Source of the DNA: an uncultured bacterium
GTDB taxonomy: Bacteria > Bacteroidota > Ignavibacteria > UBA10030 > BY39
Direction: 5' to 3'
DNA: 64,000 nucleotides
Assembly (NCBI GenBank): GCA_937967455.1
Contig: CALCJK010000017.1
Location: forward strand, 1 to 64,000
Part shown: one piece after another, positions 20,119 to 49,567 of the stretch
How the letters are laid out: each line of letters opens with the position of its first letter
How positions within the stretch are numbered: the stretch's first letter is position 1
Program-made: the position numbers and the translations under genes
Notes under the pieces: generated by a model
What the model was told of the DNA's origin: nothing
What the model saw: only the letters and a program-made list of their open reading frames with translations
Database searches by the model: none

Positions 20119-21498
20119 TTAATCTACCTTAATACCGTATTTTTTTATTTTTAGATAGAGTGCCTTTTGACTGATACCAAGTGCTTCTGCAGTTTTTGAT
20201 CTGTTACCATTCATAAGTTTCAGAACATGTTCAATATGTATTTTCTCCAGCTCATCCATAGAAAGCAATTTCCCAAACTTAGTATCAGCTTCCATCTGTT
20301 TTTCTTCTAAATTATTTCGACTGGTTGGATATAAATTAGGTTGTGCAATTTTTAAATCCTGCGGTTGAATAATGTCGCTATTTGATAAAATTATTGCGCT
20401 TTCAATAACATGTTCAAGCTCCCTAACATTTCCTGGCCAGTCGTATTCCAGAAGAATCTGGAGTGCCTCCTGTGATAAAATTTTGGGTTCCTTCGATTTC
20501 TTCCTCAAAAAATAATCCGCAAGTAAAGGAATATCATCTTTTCTTTCCTTAAGCAGAGGCATTTTTAGTGTAACAACATTTATACGATATAATAGGTCCT
20601 GTCTGAATTTACCATTATTGACTTCTGATAAAAGATTTTTATTTGTAGCCGAAATCACTCTAACATCTACATGTAATTCACTTGTACCGCCAACTCTTCT
20701 AAAATTTCCTGTTTCAAGAAACCTGAGTAACTTGGGTTGAATATGCATACTTATATCACCAATCTCATCCAGAAAGAGAGTACCTCCATTTGCTACTTCA
20801 ACAAGACCTGGTTTCAGTGTATGTGCATCTGTAAAGGCTCCCTTTTCATGTCCAAAAATTTCACTTTCGATTAAAGTATCTGGAATTGATGCACAATTTA
20901 CAGCAACGAATGGATAATTTTTTCTTGGACTTTCTCTATGTATCAGGTGTGCAATTAATTCCTTTCCTGTACCACTTGAACCTTCGATTAAAACATAAGA
21001 ATCCTCAGCTGCAATTCTTTTTGCGTCGTCAAGCAACTTTTTAAATATAGGGCTTTCACCGATAATCTCAGTACTAGAAATTCTAGCAAGTTCATTTTCC
21101 ATAACCTTGCTTTTAATAAGCAATTTTTTTCTTTCAATTGCTCTTTCTATAGCATTAAAAAGTTCATCAATATCATAAGGTTTACCTATAAAATCGTATG
21201 CGCCTAAGCGAATAGTCTCAACGACAGTTTTAACATCGCTATATCGGGAGAGTATAATAACTTGAGAGTCGGGTGATTTTTCTTGAATAAACTTCAGTAC
21301 TTCCAAGCCTCCAATTCTTGGAAGTTTAATATCCAACAAAATTACATCATAAATTTTTTTTTGAATTAAATTTATTGCCTCCACACCATCATATGCCAAA
21401 TCCACATCATATTTTCCTGTATCCTGTAGTTCATCCTGTAAAAGATCAATCAACTGAACTTCATCATCTACAATAAGAATTCTATCTCTTTGTAACAT
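20119..21498 (-). CDS. NtrC-family sigma54-dependent response regulator
   Basis: 459-residue regulator with three domains. A receiver spans residues 1-120 (acidic DD at 11-12, phosphoacceptor Asp56, Lys in GKPYD). An AAA+ domain spans about 145-380 with Walker A EGSSGTGKEL, Walker B GGTLFLDEIGD and an arginine-finger region. A Fis-type helix-turn-helix is at the C-terminus (NRSKTAEALGISQKALYLKI). The sigma54-contact loop reads GAFTDA instead of GAFTGA. It lies 17 bp downstream of a CheY-like gene, so a shared operon is likely. The cognate kinase and target are not visible nearby. Confidence 0.92.
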   Translation of the reverse strand: MLQRDRILIVDDEVQLIDLLQDELQDTGKYDVDLAYDGVEAINLIQKKIYDVILLDIKLPRIGGLEVLKFIQEKSPDSQVIILSRYSDVKTVVETIRLGAYDFIGKPYDIDELFNAIERAIERKKLLIKSKVMENELARISSTEIIGESPIFKKLLDDAKRIAAEDSYVLIEGSSGTGKELIAHLIHRESPRKNYPFVAVNCASIPDTLIESEIFGHEKGAFTDAHTLKPGLVEVANGGTLFLDEIGDISMHIQPKLLRFLETGNFRRVGGTSELHVDVRVISATNKNLLSEVNNGKFRQDLLYRINVVTLKMPLLKERKDDIPLLADYFLRKKSKEPKILSQEALQILLEYDWPGNVRELEHVIESAIILSNSDIIQPQDLKIAQPNLYPTSRNNLEEKQMEADTKFGKLLSMDELEKIHIEHVLKLMNGNRSKTAEALGISQKALYLKIKKYGIKVD

Positions 21499-21515
21499 AA
21501 TCCGTTTTAATATTG

Positions 21516-21884
21516 CTACTCACTTAGTACTCTTTCAATTGTTGATAACAGGTCTACCAGATCATAAGGTTTGCTTACGAAATCTTCAGCTCCCAATTTT
21601 TTTGATTCAATTGCATTTTTTAAATCAGCAAAACCAGTTAGCATTATGACTTTTAAATTTTTGTAATTTTCCTTAATAAACTTTAACACTTCAAAGCCAT
21701 CTTTTTTTGGCATCCTGATATCGAGTAGTACTAAATCAAATGGCTTTTGTTGAATTACTTCTAGAGCCATTTCGCCATCAGCAGCTGTTTCAACTTCGTA
21801 CCCCTCCCCTCTCAGTTCCTGACTTAAAACAGTTCTTAATGGGTCTTCATCGTCAACAACTAAGATTCTGGTTTTTTCAGTCAT
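21516..21884 (-). CDS. Single-domain response regulator (CheY-like)
   Basis: 122-residue stand-alone receiver. The acidic pair DD (11-12), phosphoacceptor Asp55 in LLDIRMPK, switch Thr in MLTGFAD and Lys in SKPYD are all present, so it should be phosphorylatable. It has no output domain and must act by protein contact or as a phosphorelay step. It is 17 bp upstream of the sigma54 regulator and divergent from the receiver-DHp gene at 22130. Confidence 0.9.
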   Translation of the reverse strand: MTEKTRILVVDDEDPLRTVLSQELRGEGYEVETAADGEMALEVIQQKPFDLVLLDIRMPKKDGFEVLKFIKENYKNLKVIMLTGFADLKNAIESKKLGAEDFVSKPYDLVDLLSTIERVLSE

Positions 21885-22077
21885 ATAAACTCCTTATATA
21901 TTATTAAAATCAACAATAAATTTTTTCTTAAATTAAGAAATTCATATCAGAAAATCAAATTGCTAATATTTTTTTGAAAAAAGTTGAAGACATAAAGTTT
22001 AATCAAAATTCTAAGACTTTAAGGATACATCAAAAATATAATATTAAAGCGCTTAATTAGGATTTTAACCATGCAAT

Positions 22078-22106
22078 TTGCAATTTAAATTTTTATATGC
22101 TATAAT
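22078..22106 (+). promoter_or_regulatory. Sigma70-type promoter of the receiver-DHp gene
   Basis: TTGCAA, 17 bp, TATAAT, with the start predicted about 17 bases before the ATG at 22130. An 11-bp palindrome TGCAATTTGCA (22072-22082) overlaps the -35 box and could be an operator. Confidence 0.55.
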
Positions 22107-22129
22107 TTAAAAAGTAACATGAGAAAGAT

Positions 22130-22783
22130 ATGGAAATTGAAACTTTAGACATACTGTTAGTTGATGATGATCCTGTATATGCGAATGTTGCACGACATCA
22201 TCTCAGTAAGTATCCAAGTAAAAAATTTAATTTAATCTGGAAAGATAATGGGGAAGCAGCAATCCAGGAATTAAAAAATAACCCCAATATTAAACTTATA
22301 TTAATAGATTATTACTTACCAGATAAAGACGGGTTAGAAATCGTAAAAGAAATTGCAAATTTACATATTTCAATTCCAATAATTTTTCTTACAACTCAAA
22401 AAAACTTTAAAATAGCAATTGAAGCTATGAAATTAAATGTGGAGGATTTTCTTATTAAGGAAGAAGCCATAGATACTATGTTACCACGCACAATTGTGAC
22501 AGTGCTGGAAAGATTTAAAATTAAAAAACAACTTGAAAAAGCAGAAAAGGAAAAGATAATATCGGAAGGCAAAGCAAATGCGATAAAAGAATTAATTGTG
22601 ACTATAAGTCATGAATTTAACAATCCACTTGCAGCAATAAAAATTAGTACCGACATTTTAGCAAAACAGAATTTACCACCCGAAATCAAAATAACTTTGG
22701 AAGAATTGGTAGAAAATTTAAGAAAGATTGAGAAGGAAATTTCAAAATTGAAAGATTTAGATATTCCGGGATTAGCAATATAA
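22130..22783 (+). CDS. Receiver-DHp protein without ATPase domain
   Basis: 217-residue signalling protein. Residues 6-125 are an intact receiver: acidic cluster VDDD (11-14), phosphoacceptor Asp60 in LILIDYYLPD, Thr in FLTTQ and Lys110. A helical linker (125-150) leads into a DHp/HisKA helix with His161 in TISHEFNNPLAAI, then a second helix to about residue 208. The protein ends there, so the HATPase domain of a histidine kinase is missing. The stop lies two bases before the convergent atpG stop, and no remnant of an ATPase follows. It could be a phosphotransferase between receivers or a partner of kinases. See also 44912. Confidence 0.8.
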   Translation: MEIETLDILLVDDDPVYANVARHHLSKYPSKKFNLIWKDNGEAAIQELKNNPNIKLILIDYYLPDKDGLEIVKEIANLHISIPIIFLTTQKNFKIAIEAMKLNVEDFLIKEEAIDTMLPRTIVTVLERFKIKKQLEKAEKEKIISEGKANAIKELIVTISHEFNNPLAAIKISTDILAKQNLPPEIKITLEELVENLRKIEKEISKLKDLDIPGLAI

Positions 22784-44911: not shown

Positions 44912-45598
44912 ATGAATAATTTTATGGAAACAATTTCAATTTTAATTATTGAGCCAACTGAATTGGCGTTCGAAACTTTAAGTAATCAATTTAAAAAAGC
45001 TTTAAAAAACAATATTATACTGGATAAAGTCAATTATCAAACAATACAAGATTTCATAAAAGATAAGATTCCAATTTATGATCTGGTATTAATTGGTGAA
45101 TTGATAGAACCCAAGGAAACTATAAAAATTTCAGGTTTACTCAGACAAAGTGGTTTCTATATGCCATTGATCTTATTAACACAAGTGCAAGATACAAAAT
45201 TAACAATCCAACAAATTGAAGCTGGTATTGATGATTGTCTAAATGTTTACGAATTCGAATCAGAAACATTTGCATGGAGCCTTACAAGTTTAATTCAGAA
45301 ATCTGAGATAAAACAGAAGGCTGAAGAATTTGAAACCATTAGAGCAAAAATTTTATCACTTTATACAGCTTTAGCTAAAATAACTCATGAAATAAATAAT
45401 CCGCTTGGAGTTATGAGATTAGCAATTTTTCAAATAAAAAATAAATCAAATAATGATGAATCCTTAAATAAATACATTCAAATGATCTCTGATAACATAG
45501 ATAAAATTGAAAGCCAAATCACCGATCTAAGAAAAGTAAGAGAAGAAATGCAGGTCGAACAAACAATACTTCGCAAAATTTTATCTTTAAAAGAATAA
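44912..45598 (+). CDS. Pseudo-receiver-DHp protein without ATPase domain
   Basis: 228-residue protein with the same architecture as the one at 22130. Residues 7-128 follow the receiver fold, but the acidic pair is replaced by IEPTE, the phosphoacceptor position by IGEL (about residue 62), and the Lys is lost, so it should not be phosphorylated there. A coiled-coil linker leads into a DHp helix with His159 in KITHEINNPLGVMRL and a second helix to about residue 212. There is no HATPase domain, and the next gene starts 27 bp later. That gene is a giant hybrid kinase, a likely partner. A second ATG four codons in is an alternative start. Confidence 0.78.
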   Translation: MNNFMETISILIIEPTELAFETLSNQFKKALKNNIILDKVNYQTIQDFIKDKIPIYDLVLIGELIEPKETIKISGLLRQSGFYMPLILLTQVQDTKLTIQQIEAGIDDCLNVYEFESETFAWSLTSLIQKSEIKQKAEEFETIRAKILSLYTALAKITHEINNPLGVMRLAIFQIKNKSNNDESLNKYIQMISDNIDKIESQITDLRKVREEMQVEQTILRKILSLKE

Positions 45599-45625: not shown

Positions 45626-48600
45626 ATGAGTAAAATACTTTTTATCACAGAGAATCATGAAGAAATAGATATTGTAAAAAATTTTTTAGAAAATCATAAC
45701 ATCAAAGTAAACATTATAACTTCAAATTATTGTTCCTGTCAGCAATTGATAGAAAACAATTCCTTTCAATTAATCATTGCATCAGTTCCATCCCAACCCG
45801 AATACCTGGATAACCTCCTAAACATCAACCCAGACCATCCTATTTTTCTATTAGCAGATGACGAATCAGAAATTATGAATTTTACACCTGCACTAAATAC
45901 AAAAGTACTCAACAAAAAATCAGATTATCTCTCTACTATAAAAGATTTTATAATTTCTCAAACAGAACAGATTGACAACTCAATTATTAAAAATTTACTC
46001 ATAGATATAATAGATGATGCAATATGTATCCTTGATAAAGATCACATAATTAAATACTGGAACAATGCAGCAGAAAATTTATTTGGATGGTATAAGAACG
46101 AAACCTTAAACAAAAAATTCAATTCTATTATTAAATTAAAATTCAGCAATAACGGAGAGAACTTAACCTTTGATGAAATCATAAATAATAATAAAACAGT
46201 ATCCGTTGAAAGTAAAATAACAACAAAATATAACACCACAATTTTCGTAGAATTAAAAATCACAAAAGTTTATCTTGAAAAAGTAAATTCAACATTCATT
46301 TTATTAAAGTTTAGAGAAATAACAGCATATAAAGAAGTTCAAAAGCAGCTTCATATTCTTTCCGACATAGTACTTAATACTTCTGATGGAATTATTTTGT
46401 CAGACTTAAACAAAAATATTATTTTTGTGAATAAGGCTAAAGCGGATATGTTGGGCTATGATGTAAATGAATTGATAGGTAAAGATGTTTCGGTGTTATC
46501 AGGAAATGATCCAGCTATAATAAACGAAATTCAAAAAGTACATAAACAAGTTCTAACAGAAGGTATATGGAGTGGTGAAATAAATGAACTGAAAAAAGAT
46601 GGAACCCAAATTACTATACATCTAACAAGTAAGCTACTCAAAACTGACGACGGGCGCCCATATGCAATACTAGGCACTTCTCAGGACATTACAAATAAAA
46701 AAGGACTTGAAAAAAAACTAATAGAATCAGAAGAATGGTACAGAACACTTATTACAAGTATTAATGGAATATTAATATTCTTTGATCCTTTTGGCAAGAT
46801 CAAATTTGTTAATCAGGCTACAGAGAAAATCCTGGATTACACTTTCGACGAACTTGTAAATGTTGATTTTTTCCAGCTCTTTAATTTTGAAGATCAACTT
46901 CAACAAGATTACATTATGGATAAAATCCTATCTGGTATATCACTTCAGGGCATTAACTCAACAATTAAAACCAAATCAGGAAATGAACGCAACATTGTTT
47001 GTAACTTAAGCCCAAGATACGACTCAGAAAGACTCATTAACGGTATAATATGCAATGGAATTGACATTACCGAATTAAAATCATTAGAGAAGAAGCTTGC
47101 TGAAACATATAATTACATTGAGAACATTATTAAAAATTCAGCTGATGGAATTGCAACATTTGATCTTGATGCAAAGGTAGTAACTTGGAACAAAGCATGT
47201 GAAAAAATTTATGGCTATAAATATGAAGAAGTTCTAGGTAAAACAATTCTAAACACTGTTCCTGAAAAACATTTACCTGAATGGAAAAAAATTTACCATG
47301 GCGTTCTACAAGGAAAAACATATGAAAATATTGAGGTTGAAAGAATCAGAAAAGATGGGAAAATTATTAATCTACTTTTAACTGTATCTCCAATACAAAA
47401 TTTAGAAGGAAAAGTTATTGGAATATCATCATTTATCAGGGACATTACTGAAAAGAAACTTCTTGAAAAACAAGCTTACCTATCAGAGGCAAAATACAGA
47501 CAACTTTTTGAGGAATCAAAGGATTTTATATTTGAAACTTCAGCTGATGGAAAATTCATTTCAATTAATCAGGCTGGTGTCGAAATTCTGGGTTATGATT
47601 CAAAAGAAGAAATTCTAAAAATAGATATTGCAAAAGATTTATATATCAATCCAGAGGAAAGAGAAAAATTCAAGTCCGAAATAGAAAAGTTTGGATATGT
47701 TATAGATTTCGAAGTTCATCTTAAAAGGAAAAACGGCGATAAGATCACTTTGATGGAAACTGCAACAGCTGTTTACGACGATAATAATCAAATTATTGGA
47801 TACAGAGGTATAGGAAGAGATTTAACAGAAAAGAAACAACACCAGGAAAGAATTTTATCTCTTTTAATCGCTTCCCAGGCATTTTCAAGAACAACCACTG
47901 AAGAAGAAATTTTTGACACAATTGCAAAAGCAATTAAAAGATTAGCATATAATTTAATCATATTAATGCGGCAAGGTAATAGTTTAAAAATTGCAAGAAG
48001 TACATTCGATGAAAATATGGCTCGTGCTCTCGAAAAAATGTACAACTTTAGATTTTCAACTTACTTAATTCCATACAAAAAATTTGCAGGATTAAAAAGT
48101 GTTATTGATGAGAAAAAGACCGTTCTCAACGAAAAATCGATCGAAAGATTAATAGAAATTTTACCGGGACATATACCACGTAACGAAATTGAAACTTTTA
48201 TAAATGAAATCGGTTATAAAAATCGATCCATCTCTTTACCACTTGTTGTTTTTAATGATGTAATTGGGGTTTTAATAATAAATTCAGACGAATTTAAACA
48301 AGATGATATTCCTATCTTTAACCTTTATGCGGCACAATTAAATGCAGCTTTAGAAAATGCTCGACTTTACAAACGTCTCACCCAGGCGAATGAAGAACTC
48401 AGGAACGCCTATGAGAAATTACACGAATCACAAACAATGCTTATTCACAGTGAAAAAATGAAAGCCATTGGAGATTTAGCCAGCGGTGTTGCACACGACT
48501 TCAATAATTTGTTGGGCATAATTTCTGGACGTGCTCAACTTTTACAACTAAGAACTACTGATCAAAAAACAAAAAACGATCTGGATGTTATTCTTAAAGC

Positions 48601-49567
48601 TGCGATGGATGGAGCTGAGACAGTCAGAAGATTACAGGATTTTGCCAAGAAAAAAGTGGACGACAACGCTTCAGCTATAGATGTAAATTTGATAATTGAA
48701 GATGTAATACAATTAACACAAACGAAATGGAAAGATATTGCACATCAAAAAGGTATAAATATTGAAATAATTAAAGAATTCGATAATTTGCCAATAATCT
48801 TTGGCAGCGGTTCAGAGTTAAGAGAGATACTTACAAATTTAATATTAAATGCAGTCGATGCTATGCCTAAAGGTGGTACAATTAAAATTACTACAAAAAA
48901 CTTAGACAGATTGTATAGCATAATAGTCGAAGATACAGGAGTTGGAATTCCTGAGGAAGCACTTCCTAAGATATTCAATCCATTCTACACAACAAAAGGG
49001 GAAAGAGGCACAGGATTAGGCCTTGCAATGGTAAAAACACTTGTTGCAAAAAGACAAGGAGATATACAGGTTCAAAGCCAGGTCGGTGTTGGTACAAAAT
49101 TCACAATTACATTCCCAAAATTAAACGTTGAGAAAAACTTATCAAACGATAAAATATATACCACAGAAATCCGTAAAGTAAGCAGTACAAATCCATATAA
49201 TGTGTTAATTATTGATGATGAAGAAGAAATACGCTTATTACTATCAGAAATTTTACAACAGGCAAACTATGGTGTAGTTATAGCAAAGGACGGTAAAGAA
49301 GGAATAGAAAAATTCAAAAACAATAAGATAGATATTGTATTTACTGACTTGGGAATGCCAGATGTTAATGGTTGGGAAGTGGCAAAAGAAGTAAAGAAGA
49401 TTAATCCAAATACACCAGTAATATTAATCTCTGGTTGGGGCAGAGATTTAAAAGATCAAGATTTGACAAATACTGGAGTGGACTTTCTTGCATCCAAACC
49501 TTTTCATATCGACGAGATATTCCAGATACTTGTACACGCCAAACACATGATAGAAAACAAAGAATAA
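45626..49567 (+). CDS. Giant five-PAS hybrid histidine kinase
   Basis: 1313-residue soluble hybrid kinase. Residues 1-115 look like another pseudo-receiver without phosphoacceptor Asp. Five PAS domains begin at about 128, 244, 365, 491 and 618. A GAF-like domain covers about 745-910. The DHp His is in SGVAHDFNNLLGIISG (about 956). The ATPase has NLILNAVDAMPKGG, EDTGVGIPEEA and GTGLGLAMV. A C-terminal receiver starts at about 1191 with IIDDEEE and an Asp in VFTDLGMPD (about 1241). No membrane segment is seen, so it senses cytoplasmic signals such as redox or ligands. It is co-directional with and 27 bp after the pseudo-receiver-DHp gene. Confidence 0.92.
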   Translation: MSKILFITENHEEIDIVKNFLENHNIKVNIITSNYCSCQQLIENNSFQLIIASVPSQPEYLDNLLNINPDHPIFLLADDESEIMNFTPALNTKVLNKKSDYLSTIKDFIISQTEQIDNSIIKNLLIDIIDDAICILDKDHIIKYWNNAAENLFGWYKNETLNKKFNSIIKLKFSNNGENLTFDEIINNNKTVSVESKITTKYNTTIFVELKITKVYLEKVNSTFILLKFREITAYKEVQKQLHILSDIVLNTSDGIILSDLNKNIIFVNKAKADMLGYDVNELIGKDVSVLSGNDPAIINEIQKVHKQVLTEGIWSGEINELKKDGTQITIHLTSKLLKTDDGRPYAILGTSQDITNKKGLEKKLIESEEWYRTLITSINGILIFFDPFGKIKFVNQATEKILDYTFDELVNVDFFQLFNFEDQLQQDYIMDKILSGISLQGINSTIKTKSGNERNIVCNLSPRYDSERLINGIICNGIDITELKSLEKKLAETYNYIENIIKNSADGIATFDLDAKVVTWNKACEKIYGYKYEEVLGKTILNTVPEKHLPEWKKIYHGVLQGKTYENIEVERIRKDGKIINLLLTVSPIQNLEGKVIGISSFIRDITEKKLLEKQAYLSEAKYRQLFEESKDFIFETSADGKFISINQAGVEILGYDSKEEILKIDIAKDLYINPEEREKFKSEIEKFGYVIDFEVHLKRKNGDKITLMETATAVYDDNNQIIGYRGIGRDLTEKKQHQERILSLLIASQAFSRTTTEEEIFDTIAKAIKRLAYNLIILMRQGNSLKIARSTFDENMARALEKMYNFRFSTYLIPYKKFAGLKSVIDEKKTVLNEKSIERLIEILPGHIPRNEIETFINEIGYKNRSISLPLVVFNDVIGVLIINSDEFKQDDIPIFNLYAAQLNAALENARLYKRLTQANEELRNAYEKLHESQTMLIHSEKMKAIGDLASGVAHDFNNLLGIISGRAQLLQLRTTDQKTKNDLDVILKAAMDGAETVRRLQDFAKKKVDDNASAIDVNLIIEDVIQLTQTKWKDIAHQKGINIEIIKEFDNLPIIFGSGSELREILTNLILNAVDAMPKGGTIKITTKNLDRLYSIIVEDTGVGIPEEALPKIFNPFYTTKGERGTGLGLAMVKTLVAKRQGDIQVQSQVGVGTKFTITFPKLNVEKNLSNDKIYTTEIRKVSSTNPYNVLIIDDEEEIRLLLSEILQQANYGVVIAKDGKEGIEKFKNNKIDIVFTDLGMPDVNGWEVAKEVKKINPNTPVILISGWGRDLKDQDLTNTGVDFLASKPFHIDEIFQILVHAKHMIENKE

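Follow-up and report, generated by a model that had tools for sequence, protein, structure and literature searches.

The gene at positions 44912-45598 of the window (the whole 64,000-nucleotide stretch of DNA that was analysed) encodes a protein in which a degenerate receiver precedes a DHp hairpin with an invariant His, and in which the CA domain is missing. Its sequence and its conserved gene neighbours suggest that it is probably a DHp-only histidine phosphotransferase, similar to Spo0B and ChpT, which would relay phosphate from a hybrid kinase to a DNA-binding receiver protein, a task that normally falls to another type of protein. The features of the gene are as follows.

44912..45598, forward strand: CA-less pseudo-receiver-DHp protein, 228 aa (ORF, Pfam, orthologue alignment, omega)
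44927..45262, forward strand: pseudo-receiver domain, residues 6-117, (beta-alpha)5 (AlphaFold2 model and PDB receiver matches; no Pfam Response_reg)
44951..44956, forward strand: E14-P15 where the acidic pair would be, with one acid remaining (alignment)
45095..45097, forward strand: codon of G62, at the place of the phospho-acceptor Asp (alignment)
45245..45247, forward strand: codon of V112, at the place of the conserved Lys (alignment)
45263..45331, forward strand: alpha5/linker helix that runs on into DHp helix 1 and carries the invariant W122, S126 and K136 (alignment, AlphaFold2 model)
45332..45550, forward strand: DHp/HisKA helical hairpin (PF00512 at residues 153-207; AlphaFold2 model)
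45386..45388, forward strand: codon of His159 in THEINNPL, candidate phospho-acceptor (invariant in 16 aligned orthologues and in the L055 sister DHp)
45575..45592, forward strand: C-terminal tail KILSLK, common to family f1 and some members of family f2 (see below)

The open reading frame is complete, and neither an upstream nor a downstream continuation was seen; translation probably starts at M5 (44924), since the orthologues begin there. A Pfam search of the protein returned HisKA (PF00512, residues 153-207, E 3.4e-8) as the sole curated domain above the cut-off, with no Response_reg or HATPase match, and Hpt (PF01627) was absent from the matches with E up to 1. The protein stops directly past DHp helix 2, and no degenerate CA-like domain follows the DHp. 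A scan for promoters and terminators at the locus gave results no better than shuffles.

We ran AlphaFold2 on the window protein with six relatives. In the model of 44912 (mean pLDDT 81, pTM 0.59), residues 7-117 adopt a receiver-type (beta-alpha)5 fold, and an unbroken helix (118-177) joins this fold to the DHp hairpin (182-224). With this model as query, Foldseek ranked LvrB, a Rec-DHp-CA kinase, first, followed by many receivers. The matches of a VIA-align comparison covered almost solely the receiver part, and the comparison bears on that part rather than on the DHp. An earlier note on this DNA had described the acidic pair and the phosphoacceptor of the receiver as lost and had placed His159 within THEINNPL. 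The His is where it was said to be and the phospho-Asp is indeed gone (G62), but the acidic pair is only half lost, with E14 left next to P15; the alignment also showed V112 in place of the Lys, and Thr90 retained. Judged by these residues, the receiver is dead and its phosphorylation site is gone.

Something similar to 44912 was found in 115 of 150 related genomes, and a tree separated orthologues from paralogues. There were 16 true orthologues, belonging to the families f1 (five genomes, 43-83% identity) and f2 (11 genomes, 21-30% identity over the whole protein). His159, N162, N163, P164, R169, L170, L206 and R210 are invariant in the alignment of all 16, and the linker-helix residues W122, S126 and K136 are likewise unchanged. 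The receiver site is lost in every orthologue: the place of the phospho-Asp (residue 62) is taken by Gly in 15 and by Ser in one, and none has a Lys at residue 112. Orthologues lacking the His, which the earlier note had named as counting against its reading, were not seen: all 17 members of the clade keep it. An E or D at position +1 from the His and an Asn at +4 are retained throughout this clade (clade A, the 44912 type).

Within the pseudo-receiver, the beta4-alpha4-beta5-alpha5 side, which is the dimer and output face of ordinary receivers, is the most conserved region, about equal to the DHp. For the whole gene, omega was 0.05 between G000 (the genome of the window) and G001, a rough value as dS was near saturation, and 0.09 between G003 and G004, and purifying selection was stronger on the DHp part than on the pseudo-receiver. 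We rejected a truncated or frameshifted full kinase as the identity of 44912 on the grounds of the clean open reading frame, selection and conservation. A search for viral relatives found none.

The earlier note had also reported a five-PAS hybrid kinase 27 bp downstream, and the kinase does begin there. Its features are as follows.

45626..49567, forward strand: hybrid kinase of 1313 aa, consisting of pseudo-REC, five PAS, GAF, HisKA, HATPase and REC (Pfam, motifs)
45626..45955, forward strand: degenerate N-terminal receiver (AlphaFold2, Foldseek)
48470..48652, forward strand: HisKA, VAHDFNNLLG (domain and motif search)
48812..49120, forward strand: HATPase_c (domain search)
49202..49528, forward strand: C-terminal receiver with intact active site, Asp1241 in FTDLGMP, LISGWG motif (Pfam, motifs)

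This kinase retains intact HisKA, HATPase and receiver motifs in each of the five f1 genomes. While the giant hybrid kinase was correctly recognised before, its own degenerate N-terminal receiver had been overlooked. This domain was modelled with a pLDDT of 79 and matched PDB receivers in Foldseek. It evolves fast: here G000 and G001 are 59% identical, compared with 93% in the DHp-CA part. The Lys97 of this receiver is kept, and its Asp is lost except in G002. Outside f1 no orthologue of the kinase above 41% identity was found, and f2 lacks it. FxSGY/FATGUY has been described as a motif of intermediary receivers (PMC9981736). It failed as a discriminator here: the C-terminal receiver of the f1 kinase has LISGWG, yet some receivers of the HTH-REC proteins described next have LSGY.

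In f1, the DHp gene is followed by the hybrid kinase gene in five of five genomes, with gaps of 15-27 bp and constant flanking genes, so the pair is conserved across this family. The f2 arrangement is different: in 11 of 11 genomes the DHp gene lies directly after an HTH-REC regulator gene (gap 22-38 bp in nine measured cases), and there is no adjacent kinase. This regulator combines an excisionase/MerR-type HTH (HTH_17) with an intact receiver. Four searched f2 genomes without the DHp orthologue were also without HTH-REC (Fisher p 7e-4, with three of the four belonging to one genus). The description of 44912 as a dedicated partner of the 45626 kinase thus applies to f1 but not to f2, where the kinase orthologue is absent and the HTH-receiver regulator is linked instead.

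An HTH-REC search found the regulator in 27 of 391 class members, all in the families f2, f5 and f12. There was no orthologue in f1, where two HTH-REC proteins and HTH_17 as queries recovered just a 316-aa frame in G000 and a 305-aa frame in G001. Five f5 genomes carry an operon in which a hybrid kinase (PAS-GAF-HisKA-HATPase-REC-REC) is followed by HTH-REC and then by a stand-alone DHp of 93-114 aa, which has HEINNPLG and no receiver at all; in two further f5 genomes the same hybrid kinase is followed directly by the DHp, and in another two the kinase and HTH-REC are present but no DHp could be located. The DHp proteins of f1, f2 and f5 form one clade in the tree (support 99/95). In f12, the HTH-REC gene immediately precedes a hybrid kinase gene without any DHp. 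Among these f12 loci, L168-L176 have the HTH_17-receiver directly before the kinase, and a 911-aa frame follows the block in most. A six-frame look and an inspection of short frames revealed no DHp ORF beside the kinase/HTH-REC pairs of G057 and G038.

Taken together, the layouts of f1, f2, f5 and f12 show that the hybrid kinase with its terminal receiver, the CA-less DHp and HTH-REC are found either as a full set or in every possible pairing. The f12 pairs and those of G057 and G038 also indicate that some such circuits can do without the DHp.

A hybrid kinase leaves its phosphate on an Asp, and a His carrier is needed for the phosphate to reach another Asp. No Hpt domain was found in the three f1/f2 genomes tested (G000, G005 and G020), and the other HisKA domains of G000 each share a frame with a HATPase, which makes the 44912-type DHp the evident carrier candidate. 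HPt domains are present in f5 and f12 genomes. The small CA-only frames of G000 (C3:99204, C3:96483, C3:89400 and C10:16299) are all on contigs other than that of 44912. Three of these HATPase frames, those on C3, lie near each other and are probably anti-sigma-type kinases.

We infer phosphotransfer, its direction, the dimer and the f1 target from these data, and the gene pairings point to a shuttle role. The hybrid kinase (45626 in f1) would autophosphorylate and pass the phosphoryl group from its His to Asp1241 of its C-terminal receiver, from where it would move to His159 of 44912 and on to the Asp of a DNA-binding receiver protein, which in f2 and f5 would be the adjacent HTH-REC. The target in f1 may be an unlinked regulator that replaced HTH-REC. 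Flow in the reverse direction, draining phosphate, is also possible. Two 44912 chains are expected to pair through a DHp four-helix bundle. The dead receiver would most likely serve as a fixed cap for dimerisation or docking that feeds into the DHp helix; this is suggested by the retention of the linker helix and of the best conserved face, and by the f5 DHp, which manages without a receiver.

The main alternative is that the protein is a dedicated phosphatase, whose DHp helix with HE..N would dephosphorylate an adjacent receiver (the C-terminal receiver of the 45626 kinase, or HTH-REC in f2 and f5) and never carry phosphate. The H-box HE..N is also a phosphatase motif, and sequence therefore cannot separate a transferase from a phosphatase; the clade-wide acid at +1 and Asn at +4 fit a phosphatase too, and such a function was suggested earlier for HisKA proteins without HATPase (PMC5847659, PMC3591291). 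However, no member has lost the His itself, and the f5 operon, with a two-receiver kinase, a DHp and a separate HTH-REC, has the layout of a relay. Neither point is decisive, and we regard a dedicated phosphatase as unlikely but worth serious attention. We consider it improbable that 44912 contributes the DHp to a split kinase of two chains, with His159 phosphorylated from ATP by the CA domain of 45626 or by a CA-only protein. The DHp and CA of EnvZ function as separate chains (cited in PMC3591291), a CA-bearing kinase adjoins the DHp in f1, and G000 has its few small CA-only frames. However, these lie on other contigs and have a size typical of anti-sigma kinases, the 45626 kinase has an intact DHp of its own, and no kinase is found beside the f2 DHp.

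Slimmer still is the chance that the DHp of 44912 pairs with that of the kinase in a RetS-like manner and blocks or tunes it, the His being merely structural. The adjacency of the genes in f1 and the degenerate receiver with which both proteins begin would fit such a heterodimer, but the H-box types differ (THEINNPL versus AHDFNNLL), the same DHp clade pairs in f2 with HTH-REC and no kinase, and the acid, the Asn and the Pro around the His, which pairing alone does not need, are retained. The dead receiver and the missing CA could finally mark a decaying, functionless remnant of a Rec-DHp-CA kinase. We give this reading almost no credence, as it is already contradicted by omega values of 0.05-0.09, orthologues in 16 genomes and the invariant His. 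A phosphotransferase that shuttles phosphate between the hybrid kinase and a regulator remains our preferred explanation.

The tree of the CA-less receiver-DHp family has three clades, which differ in what was lost. The receiver is dead and the His kept in clade A, both are kept in clade B (the 22130 type), and in clade C the receiver is kept and the His mostly lost (kept in only 3 of 23 members). G000 has one member of each, namely 44912 (A), 22130 (B) and C3:220636-221307 (C). The clade B paralogue also lies in the window.

22130..22783, forward strand: clade B paralogue, in which an intact receiver is joined to a His-bearing DHp; it lacks a CA and is divergent from the REC and NtrC-type genes

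As the earlier note stated, 44912 and 22130 have the same domain plan, REC and HisKA without HATPase. It took them for two independent copies and argued from this against a one-off truncation. The conclusion is borne out by the conserved gene, with its 16 orthologues under purifying selection, but the premise is not: placed by the tree in different clades of one family and having separate neighbours, the two are old paralogues rather than independent inventions.

In f1 (window 20119-22783), the clade B gene adjoins a divergent gene for an NtrC-type sigma54 regulator, together with a small receiver gene. Clade B genes were also seen directly before an NtrC-sized regulator in L125 (f12) and before an NtrC-type regulator in L126 (f20). 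From these neighbours, clade B proteins may likewise transfer phosphate to such a regulator or act as its phosphatase. Clade C genes follow giant PAS/GAF kinases, with a single-receiver gene intervening in f9; that of G000 (C3:220636-221307, L179) comes directly after a giant kinase frame. In the clade C loci L179, L124, L122, L115, L046 and L049, the H-box His is replaced in nearly all by S, Q, T, G, K, D or N. Similar proteins were noticed elsewhere. Two loci encode CA-less receiver-DHp proteins in which neither site is lost: L066:1614-2273 (another Bacteroidota MAG) and L076:1280-1951 (a Latescibacterota signalling cluster). At L061:415-2185 (Cloacimonadota), a DHp without HATPase (HDINNPLSI), probably membrane-anchored, lies directly before a receiver protein with an apparent fusion to a cyclic-nucleotide-binding-like domain.

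HisKA proteins without HATPase account for 1556 of 42417 in SMART, or 3.66% (PMC3591291), and archaeal REC-HisKA proteins of this kind, for example AF_1472, were reported as unstudied, with partners unknown (PMC5847659). For DHp-only phosphotransferases, our literature search turned up nothing beyond the archaeal census and the split-kinase paper. With its conserved His and no HATPase, 44912 fits the 'HisKA, no HATPase' class, the 'possible incomplete histidine kinase' of P2CS. The novelty lies in a family that combines a dead or missing receiver, an invariant His and conserved, informative partner genes. The conserved pairings name the partners of a CA-less DHp, and its function can be tested directly with three purified proteins of one f5 operon. 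Within the family, the receiver can also be followed through natural stages of decay (live, dead, absent), and a paralogue shows the mirror image, having lost the His instead.

The regulators of the AF_1472 type have a functional receiver, as does the paralogue 22130, whereas 44912 has none. LvrB of Leptospira, the prototype Rec-controlled histidine kinase, resembles 44912 in that alpha5 extends as a signalling helix into the DHp, but differs in its CA domain and in a receiver that can be phosphorylated, neither of which is found in 44912 (PMC13269768). An HPt domain (PF01627) would occupy the same place in a relay as that proposed for 44912, but belongs to a different domain family. The closest parallels are proteins such as ChpT (PMC3433190) and PhyT (PMC5898713), which are derived from histidine kinases, have a DHp but no kinase activity and act as phosphate shuttles. 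Like ChpT, Spo0B and PhyT, 44912 has a DHp hairpin with one conserved His and no expected kinase activity, and its type would sit between a hybrid kinase, or a stand-alone receiver, and a regulator. Unlike them, it has a dead receiver in front of the DHp (absent in f5). The literature describes all three as degenerate kinases, and in ChpT the DHp is still followed by a CA-like domain (PMC3433190), whereas 44912 has none. The odds seem to us evenly balanced that, in HPt-poor Ignavibacteria-type bacteria, a CA-less receiver-DHp protein became the phosphotransferase of a small relay module of hybrid kinase, DHp and HTH-receiver, its receiver being lost stepwise, from alive (22130) through dead (f1 and f2) to gone (f5), while a sister paralogue retained the receiver and lost its His instead; this would be a second route from kinase to phosphotransferase, besides that through a degenerate CA domain.
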